From assembly GCA_017620135.1 (NCBI GenBank), contig JAFZQZ010000037.1:1-64000 (forward strand): a stretch of DNA of 64,000 nt, given 5' to 3'. The notes under the pieces are model-generated. The model had not been told where the DNA came from. It did no database searches and saw nothing but the letters and a program-made list of their open reading frames with translations. Position 1 is the stretch's first letter. Each line of letters starts with the position of its first letter. Shown one piece after another: positions 45,561 to 51,320 of this stretch. The position numbers and the translations under genes were made by a program. Origin of the DNA: Bacillota bacterium (lineage in GTDB: Bacteria; Bacillota; Clostridia; Lachnospirales; Bianqueaceae).

Positions 45561-46094
45561 TTAGAACCCTTTCCCCAGCTGATATGCCTTTTCCGGGAAA
45601 TCCGTCTCCAGCAGAGCGTCTTTTGTCCAACTGCTCGTGGCCGCTACGACGCCGGCGTTCTCCCAGTCCATATATTTCGTATAGTTCCGGAACCAGTGCT
45701 CGGAAGACTCACCCGACTCCGGAATATCGTCCGCCATGGTAAGCAGGAGCGCCGCCTTCTTGCCGTGGCGGATCTCTTCGTTGCGCGCGTAGACACGGTC
45801 CAGCATCGTCTTCAGCTGCGCGTTGATCCCATAATAATAGATAGGAGAAGACAGGACCACCGCGTCCGCCGCGATCAGCGCCTCGTGGATGGCCATCATA
45901 TCATCCTTAAAGACACAGCCGGTATCACCGGTATGGCACTTTTCACAGGCGATACACGGATGCACCTTCAGAAAAGCTCCGTCAAAGCGTTCCACTTCAT
46001 GTCCAACCTCTTTCGCTCCGCGGATGAACTCATCCGTCAGATAAGCCGACGTCCCGCTCCGGTGCGGGCTGCCCGTCAAAACGACGATCTTCAT
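45561..46094 (-). CDS. NAD(P)H-dependent FMN reductase / flavodoxin-fold oxidoreductase
   Basis: The 177-residue protein starts MKIVVLTGSPHRSGTSAYLT, the phosphate-binding loop of NADPH-dependent FMN reductases. It has HPCIACEKCHTGDTGCVFKD, a cysteine-bearing insert typical of the clostridial iron-sulfur flavoprotein-like group, and VLSSPIYYYGINAQLKTMLDR, the second flavin contact. It would move electrons from NAD(P)H through FMN. AGGAGG lies upstream. It belongs to a redox-rich minus-strand region. Confidence 0.9.
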   Translation of the reverse strand: MKIVVLTGSPHRSGTSAYLTDEFIRGAKEVGHEVERFDGAFLKVHPCIACEKCHTGDTGCVFKDDMMAIHEALIAADAVVLSSPIYYYGINAQLKTMLDRVYARNEEIRHGKKAALLLTMADDIPESGESSEHWFRNYTKYMDWENAGVVAATSSWTKDALLETDFPEKAYQLGKGF

Positions 46095-47409: not shown

Positions 47410-47961
47410 TTACAGTCTTACCGAACCTTTCGGGACCCACTTCTTCATCTGCTCGCAAAGATTCCGGAACTCGCCGTCCGCAAAGAACGTACCGTCCCCG
47501 TTGGCGTGAATGACTCTGCGTTCTTTAGGTTCCGGATTCTCCCAAAGCTGCACGCCTTTTAAAATCAGCAGCCCGTGCTCTTCCACATAATCCTCCAGCC
47601 TGCATTCTATCGCGGCCAGGCAGTTTGGAATGATCGGAGCCTTCACCGTTTCAGCTTCCTGTTTCGGAAGGGCGAATCGTTCGAACTTGTCGCATTCCGA
47701 CCCGTGGATGACGCCGATCCCCACGGCTTTTTCGATCATATCGAACCCAGGAACGTTGAGACAGCATTCCTTTGTTTTCAGGATCGTTTTGAAGGACTCA
47801 TTCCAGCTTCCGGTGGAGATCGCGATATGCGGGATAAAGTCCATCACCATCTGCCAGGAGATCGTCATGACGTTGTCTTTCCCTTCGTCATGCGTGGTGA
47901 CCAGCAAAACGGATCCTGATTCCAGATAGGTAAACGCTCTTCGGATATCACCTTTTTTCAT
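47410..47961 (-). CDS. Flavin reductase family protein
   Basis: The 183-residue protein begins MKKGDIRRAFTYLESGSVLL and has VTTHDEGKDNVMTISWQMVM and the FMN-contact region of the flavin-reductase-like split barrel, with LNVPGFDMIEKAVGIGVIHG and CRLEDYVEEHGLLILKG-type segments. It would bind FMN and pass electrons in the cytosol. Its start lies 14 bp inside the DUF4405 gene, so they are translationally coupled. It is the last gene of the flavodoxin lipoprotein operon. Confidence 0.9.
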   Translation of the reverse strand: MKKGDIRRAFTYLESGSVLLVTTHDEGKDNVMTISWQMVMDFIPHIAISTGSWNESFKTILKTKECCLNVPGFDMIEKAVGIGVIHGSECDKFERFALPKQEAETVKAPIIPNCLAAIECRLEDYVEEHGLLILKGVQLWENPEPKERRVIHANGDGTFFADGEFRNLCEQMKKWVPKGSVRL

Positions 47962-48568
47962 TTGCTTTTCCTTTCTTTGTCATCAGATATTTTAAGATAC
48001 TTCCCAGCGCCATAAATGTTGTGAACATCAGCGCGTGCAGCAGATATATGATCCATGCGGGATAGTTTGGCATGAAGGCAAATTCATTCAGAAGGAACAG
48101 CCTTTCATATAACCGGCACATGATCAATGCGACGATACCGGCTATTCCGGCTATATATAAAAGCACGTTCCATTTCCCGGATCTCAGATGCATCCCGTAG
48201 TGGATACCGCTGATCACAAACAGCCATGCGGTCGTAACCATATGGATCCGCCTTCCCAGAAGCGTCCCGCTGATGTCCAGAGAAGCGAAAATATATCCGG
48301 AGATCACAACGCTGCTCACAGCGATCAACAGGATCAACGCAATCAGAAGTATATCCGCCGCGGTCATCACCGTGCGGTTCGCGGTATATTTTCCTCGGCT
48401 GAGGCTTTGAAACCACTTGCGGTTTACCGTCAGGTGAAGCAGGACGCATACAAACATTACGATCCCGCACCATTCGTGCAGAAGACTTTGTGTCCGGCTG
48501 AATCCTATCCCGCTTCCGCACAAGAAGATCAGGACCGGGATCATAACGTAATGCAGCAGTTTTTTCAT
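47948..48568 (-). CDS. DUF4405 membrane protein, predicted diheme cytochrome b
   Basis: The 206-residue protein has about six membrane segments (near residues 6-24, 31-48, 68-94, 108-127, 133-150 and 170-192). In segment 2, His31 and His45 are separated by 13 residues; in segment 4, His109 and His123 are also separated by 13. That H-X13-H pair in two parallel helices is the bis-histidine ligand pattern of diheme cytochromes b and ferric reductases. I therefore predict two stacked hemes crossing the membrane. It overlaps the flavodoxin lipoprotein gene by 4 bp and the flavin reductase gene by 14 bp. Confidence 0.85.
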   Translation of the reverse strand: MKKLLHYVMIPVLIFLCGSGIGFSRTQSLLHEWCGIVMFVCVLLHLTVNRKWFQSLSRGKYTANRTVMTAADILLIALILLIAVSSVVISGYIFASLDISGTLLGRRIHMVTTAWLFVISGIHYGMHLRSGKWNVLLYIAGIAGIVALIMCRLYERLFLLNEFAFMPNYPAWIIYLLHALMFTTFMALGSILKYLMTKKGKANEKR

Positions 48569-49323
48569 TGGATCAGTCCTAATTCCTGCAGCCAGGGGGC
48601 AATAGACTCATTGCTCCTTACCAAAAGCCCGTCAGGCACTTCGGCATCCGGTACTTCACTCCGGATATCCTCCACGCTCCGGCCGATCCCGGTGCCGCCG
48701 CTCGTGGCGAAAGGAACGACGGTTTTGCCTGTAAAGTCGTAGGACTCCAGGAAAGTATGGATGATCATAGGGACGGTGCCCCACCAGATCGGATAACCGA
48801 GATAGATCACCTCATACTGATCGATGCTTTCGATCGGATCTTTGATCGCCGGGCGGGCGTTTTCACGCTGCTCCTGCTTGGCCGGATCCAACGCGGCAGA
48901 ATAGCCTTCCGGATACGGCTCCAAGGGGACGATCTCGATCAGATCTCCGCCTACGAGTTCGTGAAGATAAGCCGCAACCTCCCTTGTCGTCCCGGTATGG
49001 GAGAAGTAGATCACAAGGACCGTGCTGACAGGTTCTGTCGGTTCTTCCGAGGTCTGCTCCTCCGCACTTTCCTCCGGAGAGTCCTGGGCGTTTCCTTCGG
49101 CGGAGACTTCCTCGTTTACCTCAGAAGCAGCTTCCTTGCTTTCCTCAGGAGAGGTCTCCTCCGGAGCTGAGCTTGTCTCAGACTGCGCGGACGCTTGCGT
49201 TTCTGTTTCCGTGCCGGAAGCCGTCCCGGAGTTTCCCGGATCGCTTCCGCAGGCGCTTAGCATAGACGTGATCAGGATCAACACGAGGAGAACAGAAATC
49301 GTTTTAACTGAATACTTTTTCAT
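48565..49323 (-). CDS. Flavodoxin-domain lipoprotein
   Basis: The 252-residue protein has a signal sequence (MKKYSVKTISVLLVLILITS) with lipobox LSAC, so it should be lipid-anchored outside the membrane. A Ser/Glu-rich spacer (residues 30-92) follows, then a flavodoxin domain: VLVIYFSHTGTTREVAAYLH (phosphate loop), LGYPIWWGTVPMIIHTF (aromatic flavin contact) and PFATSGGTGIGRSVEDI. Flavodoxins are usually cytosolic, and an exported one needs an electron donor, which the DUF4405 protein encoded 4 bp downstream could be. Confidence 0.92.
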   Translation of the reverse strand: MKKYSVKTISVLLVLILITSMLSACGSDPGNSGTASGTETETQASAQSETSSAPEETSPEESKEAASEVNEEVSAEGNAQDSPEESAEEQTSEEPTEPVSTVLVIYFSHTGTTREVAAYLHELVGGDLIEIVPLEPYPEGYSAALDPAKQEQRENARPAIKDPIESIDQYEVIYLGYPIWWGTVPMIIHTFLESYDFTGKTVVPFATSGGTGIGRSVEDIRSEVPDAEVPDGLLVRSNESIAPWLQELGLIQ

Positions 49324-49333
49324 GATAGGTTCC

Positions 49334-49824
49334 TTACATCAGGTCCATCTTGTTCCAGAGGATATTGCCCTTTTCGTCCAGATACTCTTCGTCCACATGA
49401 ACCGCTTCCACTTTGCCGATGAACAGTTCGTGCGTACCGGGCTGGGAGCTTTCGATCACAGTGCACTCGATGCTGACCGGGCAGTCCGAAAGGATCGGGG
49501 CGTTGACGTATTCCGCGTCCTCCCACTTCAGATCCAGAGCAGCAAACTTATCACCGTTCCGACCGGACCTGGAACCAAGGTAGTTGTATTCCTTCTGAAA
49601 ACTCTTCTTCGGGAGGTTGATCACGAAAGCCCCGGTCTCTTTGACCATATGGTGAGAGAAACGGGAGGGAACGATACCGACCATGACCATGACCGGATCC
49701 AGGCTGACGTTGGCGGTAAAACCGACTACCAGCGCGTTGTTTCTTCCTTCCTTGTCTCTGCAGGAAACGATCGTCTGGGGACAGGCTGCATGCAGAGGAC
49801 CATGTTCTTGGCAAGCTTCTTCAT
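49334..49824 (-). pseudogene. Flavin reductase-type flavoprotein with a one-base frameshift
   Basis: From the ATG at 49824 the frame reads MKKLAKNMVLCMQPVP. The continuation QTIVSCRDKEGRNNALVVGF, then MVMVGIVPSRFSHHMVKETG, and so on to 49334, is in the next frame. Adding one C to the minus-strand CCCC run (49777-49780) restores a normal flavin reductase-like split barrel of about 163 residues. AAGGAG lies before the start. The gene heads the flavodoxin lipoprotein operon. The shift may be real, phase-variable or an assembly error. Confidence 0.85.
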
Positions 49825-49856: not shown

Positions 49857-51320
49857 TTATTTTGGCCATTGAAGGTTTTTCGTGACGGACCAGCTCGCTT
49901 TCTGACGCCGGTAAACAGCAGGCGGCATCCCGTATTCTTCCCGGAAGATCCGGATGAAATGGCTGTCGCTTGAAAAGCCCAGCATCTCAGCGATCTGACT
50001 GATCGGCATGGAAGAATACAAAAGCAGATTCTCGGCATAGAGCAAGCGCTGGGCACGAATATATTCCGAAAGGCTTTGCCCTGTTTCCTGATGAAACAGC
50101 ATGGATAGATAGTTCGGCGTCAGCTCCACGGCTTCCGCCAGCTGAGAAACGGTGATCTTCTCGTTCAGGTGAGCAAAGATATATTCCTTTGCTCTGCGAA
50201 CAGGCAAAGAGCCGGCCGTTTGCTTCTTCGCGCGGGCGACGAGCTGTGTAAAACTGCGGAACAGTTCCTCCACCAGAGGATAGATCTCATCGATACCGCG
50301 AATCTGGTCGGCGCACCGGATCATATGATCGCTCAGCGGATACGCCACATCCATCCCCAGTCCGCCATCCAGAGAAAAACGCGTGACCAGCATGGTAGCG
50401 CACACAAAGCGATAGATCACATTACGCAAGGGATCAGCAGAGAGCCTGCCCTGATAAGGACTTTTAAAGATCTCAAGACCCAGATCAACGGAGCGCAGAT
50501 CTCCTTTGCGCACATATTCATACTGCAACATATCGAGTTGGGTATCCAGGTGCTCAAGACCTTCCTCGCGACGCGTGAAGGTTTCGTCGATCTCATCCTT
50601 TGCCTCGATTCCCTCAGCGCGCAGAGAGCTTCTGTATATCGCTGGGGTGACGCCGTACCTTGAACGGAACGCCTGGATAAAGTGGCTTTCGCTCGCGAAG
50701 GGGAGTGTCGCCGCGATTTCGCTGATCGGACGTTCGGACTGAGCGAGCATGAGACGTGCGGCTTCCAGACGCTGCTGCCGGATAAAACCCGACAGAGCCT
50801 GCCCGGTTTCCTTTTTAAACAAAGAGGACAGATAATTCGGGGTGACACCGGCGGCTTCCGCAACCTGCGTCGTGGTGATCCGTTCATGCAAGTGGGCAAA
50901 GATAAAGGCTTTCGCCCGCTGGATCGGAAGGGTGCCGGCATTCTGCCGTTTTGTCCGGATGACTCGCTCGGTAAAGGTCGAGTACATCTCATCTACCAGC
51001 TGATAGATGTCCTCGATCGAACCCACGGCGTCCGCCCGCTGGATCAGCACATCGCTCAGGCTCATGGCTTCTTCCTTGTCGAGCCCTCCGTCGATGGCAT
51101 ACCGGGTGACCAGCACTGCCGCGCAGATAAAATGATAGATCATATTGCGCAGCGGATCCTCCGACATTTTCCCGTGGTCGGGACGCCGGAAGATCTTCCC
51201 GGCAAGCTCGACCGCGCGCATGTCTCCGTCCCGGACATACTCATACTGCAGCATATCCAGTCGATGTCCCAAAGGTTGGATCAACCAGTTTTCCTGTTCA
51301 AAGATCTTATCCTGAATCAT
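49857..51320 (-). CDS. AraC-type regulator formed by internal tandem duplication
   Basis: The 487-residue protein is two AraC regulators in one chain. LDMLQYEYVRDGDMRAVEL starts at residue 21 and LDMLQYEYVRKGDLRSVDL at residue 262, and the resemblance continues through each helix-turn-helix pair (ITTTQVAEAAGVTPNYLSSL and ITVSQLAEAVELTPNYLSML). Each half has a 110-residue helical sensing region and a full AraC DNA-binding domain. A single chain with four helix-turn-helix motifs could bind two operator half-sites without dimerising. It lies directly upstream of the flavin/flavodoxin operon on the same strand and probably controls it. Confidence 0.92.
   Translation of the reverse strand: MIQDKIFEQENWLIQPLGHRLDMLQYEYVRDGDMRAVELAGKIFRRPDHGKMSEDPLRNMIYHFICAAVLVTRYAIDGGLDKEEAMSLSDVLIQRADAVGSIEDIYQLVDEMYSTFTERVIRTKRQNAGTLPIQRAKAFIFAHLHERITTTQVAEAAGVTPNYLSSLFKKETGQALSGFIRQQRLEAARLMLAQSERPISEIAATLPFASESHFIQAFRSRYGVTPAIYRSSLRAEGIEAKDEIDETFTRREEGLEHLDTQLDMLQYEYVRKGDLRSVDLGLEIFKSPYQGRLSADPLRNVIYRFVCATMLVTRFSLDGGLGMDVAYPLSDHMIRCADQIRGIDEIYPLVEELFRSFTQLVARAKKQTAGSLPVRRAKEYIFAHLNEKITVSQLAEAVELTPNYLSMLFHQETGQSLSEYIRAQRLLYAENLLLYSSMPISQIAEMLGFSSDSHFIRIFREEYGMPPAVYRRQKASWSVTKNLQWPK

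Follow-up and report, generated by a model that had tools for sequence, protein, structure and literature searches.

A candidate outward electron-transfer unit with a DUF4405 membrane cytochrome and an exported flavodoxin lacking flavinylation features in a Bacillota bacterium

Four adjacent genes in the window, i.e. the whole 64,000-nucleotide stretch of DNA that was analysed (contig JAFZQZ010000037.1, positions 1 to 64,000, of an uncultured gut bacterium), probably encode an outward electron wire leading from the cytosol via two membrane hemes to an exported flavodoxin; we put the probability of this reading at about 0.6. Its central element, proposed in an earlier sequence-only reading of the same DNA, is a diheme DUF4405 cytochrome that links the cytosolic flavin pool to an exported flavoprotein. 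This link is well supported by the invariance of four histidines, by gene adjacency, by the predicted topology, by fusions in relatives, and by the heme b of another DUF4405 protein. FlavRed1, one of the two flavin-reductase-like genes, is frameshifted in the assembly. We infer both the direction of electron flow and the role of the FlavRed proteins as partners.

The four-gene unit and the proposed electron route

The unit and its neighbouring regulator gene comprise the following features, given in order of transcription:

49857..51320, minus strand: AraC-type probable regulator, 487 aa, co-directional with and immediately upstream of the unit (PF12833, two stretches)
49334..49824, minus strand: FlavRed1, leading gene of the unit, encoding an FMN split-barrel protein of the flavoredoxin/flavin-reductase-like type (PF01613, E 7.9e-34)
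48565..49323, minus strand: Flavodoxin_4 lipoprotein, exported, with no flavinylation insertion or motif (PF12682, E 2.6e-38)
47948..48568, minus strand: DUF4405 membrane cytochrome, with six helices (PF14358, 28.8 bits)
47410..47961, minus strand: FlavRed2, a cytosolic FMN split-barrel protein (PF01613, E 4.2e-22)

The gene overlaps previously claimed for DUF4405, with the flavodoxin on one side and a flavin reductase on the other, are real: the Flavodoxin_4 stop and the DUF4405 start overlap in ATGA, and FlavRed2 starts 14 bases inside the DUF4405 gene. Flavodoxin_4, DUF4405 and FlavRed2 are intact in the window, and of FlavRed1 only the body is. The AraC-type regulator is an in-frame tandem duplication, each half being a full module including HTH_18, with 53% identity between the halves over 227 aa. 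The duplicated form is also present in G006, a genome from the same genus (locus L011, 5247-6590), whereas G126, a genome from another family of the same order, has a divergent single AraC in its place.

The exact four-gene order was found in three genomes among ~1000 sampled, i.e. that of the window, G006 and G126. The neighbourhood search that had been proposed as a check thus recovered the unit elsewhere, but as a rare arrangement; searches with FlavRed2 (E up to 1e-20) in overlapping samples, namely 295 genomes from the order, 397 from G126's own family and 391 from the class, yielded no further four-gene sets. The DUF4405 of G006, the contig of which is also record JAFRZE010000036.1 from a goat omasum MAG, is 92% identical to that of the window, and comparison of these two genomes indicates that all four genes are under purifying selection. 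In G126 the genes stand in the same order, with 83, 55, 60 and 76% identity, and the flanks differ. That the four genes are conserved together while the surrounding synteny is lost is the strongest evidence for a single unit.

Two further genes lie nearby in the window. Just downstream of the unit is a truncated C-terminal fragment of the beta-lactamase family (PF00144; 46875-47300, minus strand), which was not seen there in G006. Farther downstream, ~1.3 kb from the unit and likewise on its strand, is a gene of the NADPH-dependent FMN reductase family (PF03358, E 1.5e-22; 45561-46094, minus strand); 10 of the 80 related DUF4405 loci described below also contain FMN_red genes.

In the proposed route, FlavRed1 and FlavRed2 would draw electrons from NAD(P)H or a carrier in the cytosol and use them to reduce flavin on the cytosolic side of DUF4405, leading to reduction of the inner heme. 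DUF4405 would pass the electrons outward through two b hemes placed one above the other in the membrane (outer H31/H109, inner H45/H123), with the outer heme reducing the non-covalent FMN of the lipid-anchored flavodoxin, held at the outer face by a flexible tether of ~75 residues. The flavodoxin would then hand electrons to an acceptor at the cell surface, as to which ferric iron, quinones and a repair enzyme are guesses.

The membrane cytochrome and its candidate cytosolic donors

The DUF4405 protein of the window is a divergent member of PF14358, since it scores 28.8 bits as a whole protein relative to a gathering cut-off of 26.7, with its halves alone giving 24.4 and 22.9 in the genome search. 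Histidines 31, 45, 109 and 123 are positioned as had been claimed, and in the AlphaFold2 model, which has six helices and a mean pLDDT of 85.9, they are located in two of these (residues 29-48 and 103-127). Conservation of these histidines among homologues had been set beforehand as a check on the diheme proposal, and all four are invariant in 46 homologues, which represent many Clostridia as well as a few further groups and most of which are ~30% identical to the query. Nine homologues belonging to the same family and order likewise have all four, and E32, G35, N49, W52 and H127 are further invariant residues in the set of 46.

The inside segments of DUF4405 carry 14 K/R residues and the outside segments carry 4, and both termini as well as loops 2-3 and 4-5 are predicted to be inside. 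With this topology both histidine helices would run from outside to inside, and for this reason the natural reading is that H31 and H109 ligate an outer heme and H45 and H123 an inner one. Heme b has been shown in one Oscillospiraceae DUF4405 protein (PMC11334425). Comparison of the DUF4405 model with the PDB by Foldseek gave no significant match. The best match by VIA-align was with 1kqf_C (formate dehydrogenase cytochrome b; Z 8.6, rmsd 5.6, 143 residues), a value in the chance range for helical bundles; the top matches are diheme cytochromes, but ion channels appear at similar Z, helical bundles scoring middling by chance. In plasmid searches, DUF4405 was found mostly in Rhizobium.

FlavRed1 and FlavRed2 reach no NCBIfam equivalog cut-off, their family assignment being by PF01613 homology alone. 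The PDB neighbours of FlavRed1 are the flavoredoxins 2d5m and 3bnk, and the nearest solved structure to FlavRed2 is 3e4v, an NADH:FMN oxidoreductase-like protein (E 5.1e-32), with homology over much of the length in both cases. Because these closest PDB entries are of the flavoredoxin or NADH:FMN split-barrel types, 'FMN electron carrier' appears as likely a description of both proteins as 'NAD(P)H flavin reductase'.

The flavin reductase previously described as heading the operon is present as a gene body that is first in the unit, but it has no intact ORF in the window. An ATG at 49824, preceded by AGGAGAA, opens a frame that stops after 32 codons, the body (49334 to about 49780) being in another frame; the lesion lies at ~49778-49781, where the window has CCCC and G006 has CCCCC. 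FlavRed1 is intact in both relatives (L011 of G006 and L151 of G126). The body is 99.3% identical between the window and G006, with a dN of 0.003 and a dS of 0.335; these values favour a lesion of very recent date or an error in assembling the MAG.

The role of the FlavRed proteins as donors to DUF4405, which we infer, would have a precedent in Fre, a possible soluble flavin-reductase donor to the membrane cytochrome MsrQ (PMC5676040). Flavin_Reduct genes occur in 12 of the 80 related DUF4405 loci compared with ~1 expected from genome density, which speaks against chance proximity, with the loci being mutually related. Most of the related loci have no FlavRed gene in a direct operon with DUF4405, so the cytosolic donor is not fixed. 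Relatives of FlavRed2 on a Paracoccus plasmid, found in the plasmid searches, adjoin a P450 and a dioxygenase, implying that the family serves other enzymes too.

The exported flavodoxin, its relatives and alternative readings

The Flavodoxin_4 protein of the window has a lipoprotein signal with the lipobox LSAC (Cys25), followed by a low-complexity tether (residues 26-99) rich in Ser, Glu, Thr and Ala, and by an FMN domain, from about residue 102, with the P-loop FSHTGTT. Three solved flavoproteins, 4ici, 3klb and 4j8p, are matched by the profile of the family, 3klb at 208 bits.

A scan of one genome per species, covering ~85,000 species with a DUF4405 alignment as the query, gave 80 loci, mostly from rumen and gut Clostridia; as these were selected by likeness to the query and are interrelated, the counts that follow describe one branch and not all DUF4405 proteins. 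Flavodoxin_4 is adjacent to or fused with DUF4405 in 66 of the 80 loci. Cultured bacteria that have the pair include Butyrivibrio sp. AC2005 and Sarcina sp. DSM 11001 (loci L098 and L051). Among the 65 flavodoxins encoded just upstream of DUF4405, the P-loop pattern was found in 61, three of which are contig-edge fragments with the pattern on another stretch, leaving 58 sound cases. A strict lipoprotein test was passed by 41 of the same 65, and in most of the printed remainder a lipobox or Sec signal is visible by eye. Recurrent neighbours in the 80 loci are a TetR regulator (36), an aldo/keto reductase (28) and a CMD/cupin protein (26), as well as a DUF362 lipoprotein and an ArsP_1 permease, the latter in 12 loci. 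The DUF362 lipoprotein and then the permease lie directly downstream of DUF4405 in L015 (1916-3833) and in L069, L095, L099, L106 and others.

In at least 16 of the 80 loci, the pair is joined in a single chain, in which DUF4405 is followed by a seventh membrane helix, an FGE-sulfatase family domain and Flavodoxin_4. The 17 aligned fusion proteins, i.e. 16 from the 80 loci plus that of L013, are ~680-810 residues long and highly conserved, with ~60% identity; examples are L013 5926-8121 (minus strand), L051 4953-7394 (plus strand) and L061 4953-7163 (plus strand). In the literature searched, we found no description of such a DUF4405/FGE-like/Flavodoxin_4 fusion. A model of the fused protein was of low confidence (pLDDT 65.6), and only its seven membrane helices were used; since the seventh of these precedes the flavodoxin, the latter would be outside the cell. 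Catalytic FGEs carry copper-site cysteines in the stretch that matches RGGGWNDFGKNMRSAYRAAG, whereas the FGE-like domain of the fusions has no cysteines there in the alignment. It therefore probably serves for binding and not for the generation of formylglycine, and may point to the substrate of the electrons.

The fusions and the recurrent neighbours bear on an alternative reading in which the unit is an MsrPQ-like detoxification or repair operon, sending electrons out to a particular surface substrate that is to be repaired or reduced, e.g. via the fused FGE-like domain. The location of that domain between the membrane part and the flavodoxin would fit such a role, as would the TetR, aldo/keto reductase, CMD/cupin and FMN reductase genes and the DUF362 lipoprotein with its ArsP_1 permease. 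These extra genes are, however, absent from the four-gene unit in the window, G006 and G126, and the missing cysteines argue against catalysis by the FGE-like domain; overall, we consider a dedicated repair operon unlikely.

In flavinylated Flavodoxin_4 proteins, strand 1 and helix 1 are separated by an insertion that bears the modified Ser/Thr (PMC11334425). The P-loop of the window flavodoxin is contiguous, without this insertion, and the alignment reveals the same in most relatives; a scan of the window protein for the flavinylation motif D-x-x-S/T-G-A-S/T was empty, and there is no apbE near the unit. Because both an apbE in the cluster and the insertion are missing, the unit falls outside the flavinylated kind, and its flavodoxin would hold FMN non-covalently. 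The unit could in principle still be a plain member of the published system, its flavodoxin being covalently flavinylated by an ApbE whose gene lies in another part of the genome. DUF4405 with Flavodoxin_4 is indeed the published pair, and two further contigs of this genome (C12 and C41) carry apbE genes, two in all. The uninterrupted P-loop and the empty motif scan nonetheless make this improbable, as does the result that ApbE was found in none of the 80 related DUF4405 loci with a profile that found 21 positive control sequences. According to an earlier suggestion, signs of flavinylation are seen in exported flavodoxins and not in cytosolic ones (PMC11334425). The loci studied here are apparently a sizeable set of exceptions, and a literature search on exported flavodoxins of the non-flavinylated kind gave nothing on point.

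That DUF4405 is instead a heme or quinone sensor or transporter, with the flavin genes as unrelated neighbours, is very unlikely: FlavRed genes are common (76 hits in 19 genomes), but the four-gene unit is kept across families despite other flanks, its genes overlap, and DUF4405 is fused to flavodoxin in many relatives.

The reading of the unit as an outward electron wire can be extended to its relatives, i.e. to a widespread, ApbE-independent form of electron transfer across the membrane in Clostridia of the gut and rumen, in which DUF4405 dihemes would reduce exported flavodoxins with non-covalent FMN, in places fused to an FGE-like domain, and of which the window unit would be a rare version, supplied by a pair of dedicated FMN proteins in the cytosol. 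We give this broader proposal even odds. If it is correct, exported flavodoxins can work without covalent flavin, which contradicts the suggestion that they need flavinylation in order to keep it, and many Clostridia of these habitats can send electrons out by a route missed in apbE-based screens. The fused DUF4405/FGE-like/flavodoxin chains provide a handle on the purpose of these electrons. The results are of modest immediate value, since both the core pairing and the presence of heme b in DUF4405 have been published already.

Comparison with known systems

Homologues of FlavRed1 and FlavRed2 are found among the flavoredoxin and NADH:FMN oxidoreductase-like split-barrel proteins (2d5m, 3bnk and 3e4v), of which we know of no case encoded with a membrane cytochrome. 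The ferrosome cytochrome FezC is a DUF4405-like heme protein (PMC11334425), but it works in an intracellular iron organelle and has no described flavodoxin partner, whereas the DUF4405 of the window pairs with a flavodoxin. In MsrPQ of Escherichia coli, a soluble cytosolic flavin reductase is the proposed donor to a heme membrane protein that passes electrons to an exported protein (PMC5676040). The exported acceptor of MsrPQ is a molybdopterin enzyme and that of the window unit a flavodoxin. In addition, Fre is of the ferredoxin-NADP reductase type and not of the split-barrel type.

The closest precedent is that of Huang, Meheust, Barquera and Light (2024), who described DUF4405 clustered with an exported, ApbE-flavinylated Flavodoxin_4 protein (PMC11334425). 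The sequence-only statement that no such system had been described was thus wrong for the core, i.e. DUF4405 with an exported Flavodoxin_4; it holds, as far as the literature was searched, for the exact four-gene set and for an exported flavodoxin that is not flavinylated. Compared with the system of Huang et al., the window unit has no apbE in its cluster and no flavinylation insertion in its flavodoxin, and no flavin transporter was found among the scanned neighbours; it has two FMN split-barrel genes instead. The two share a six-helix DUF4405 with four conserved histidines, an exported Flavodoxin_4 in the same cluster, and proposed outward transfer. With its exported flavoprotein (lipobox LSAC and tether) and a transmembrane cytochrome whose gene overlaps that of the flavoprotein, the window unit has the other tested features of the flavinylation system, and appears to work like it.
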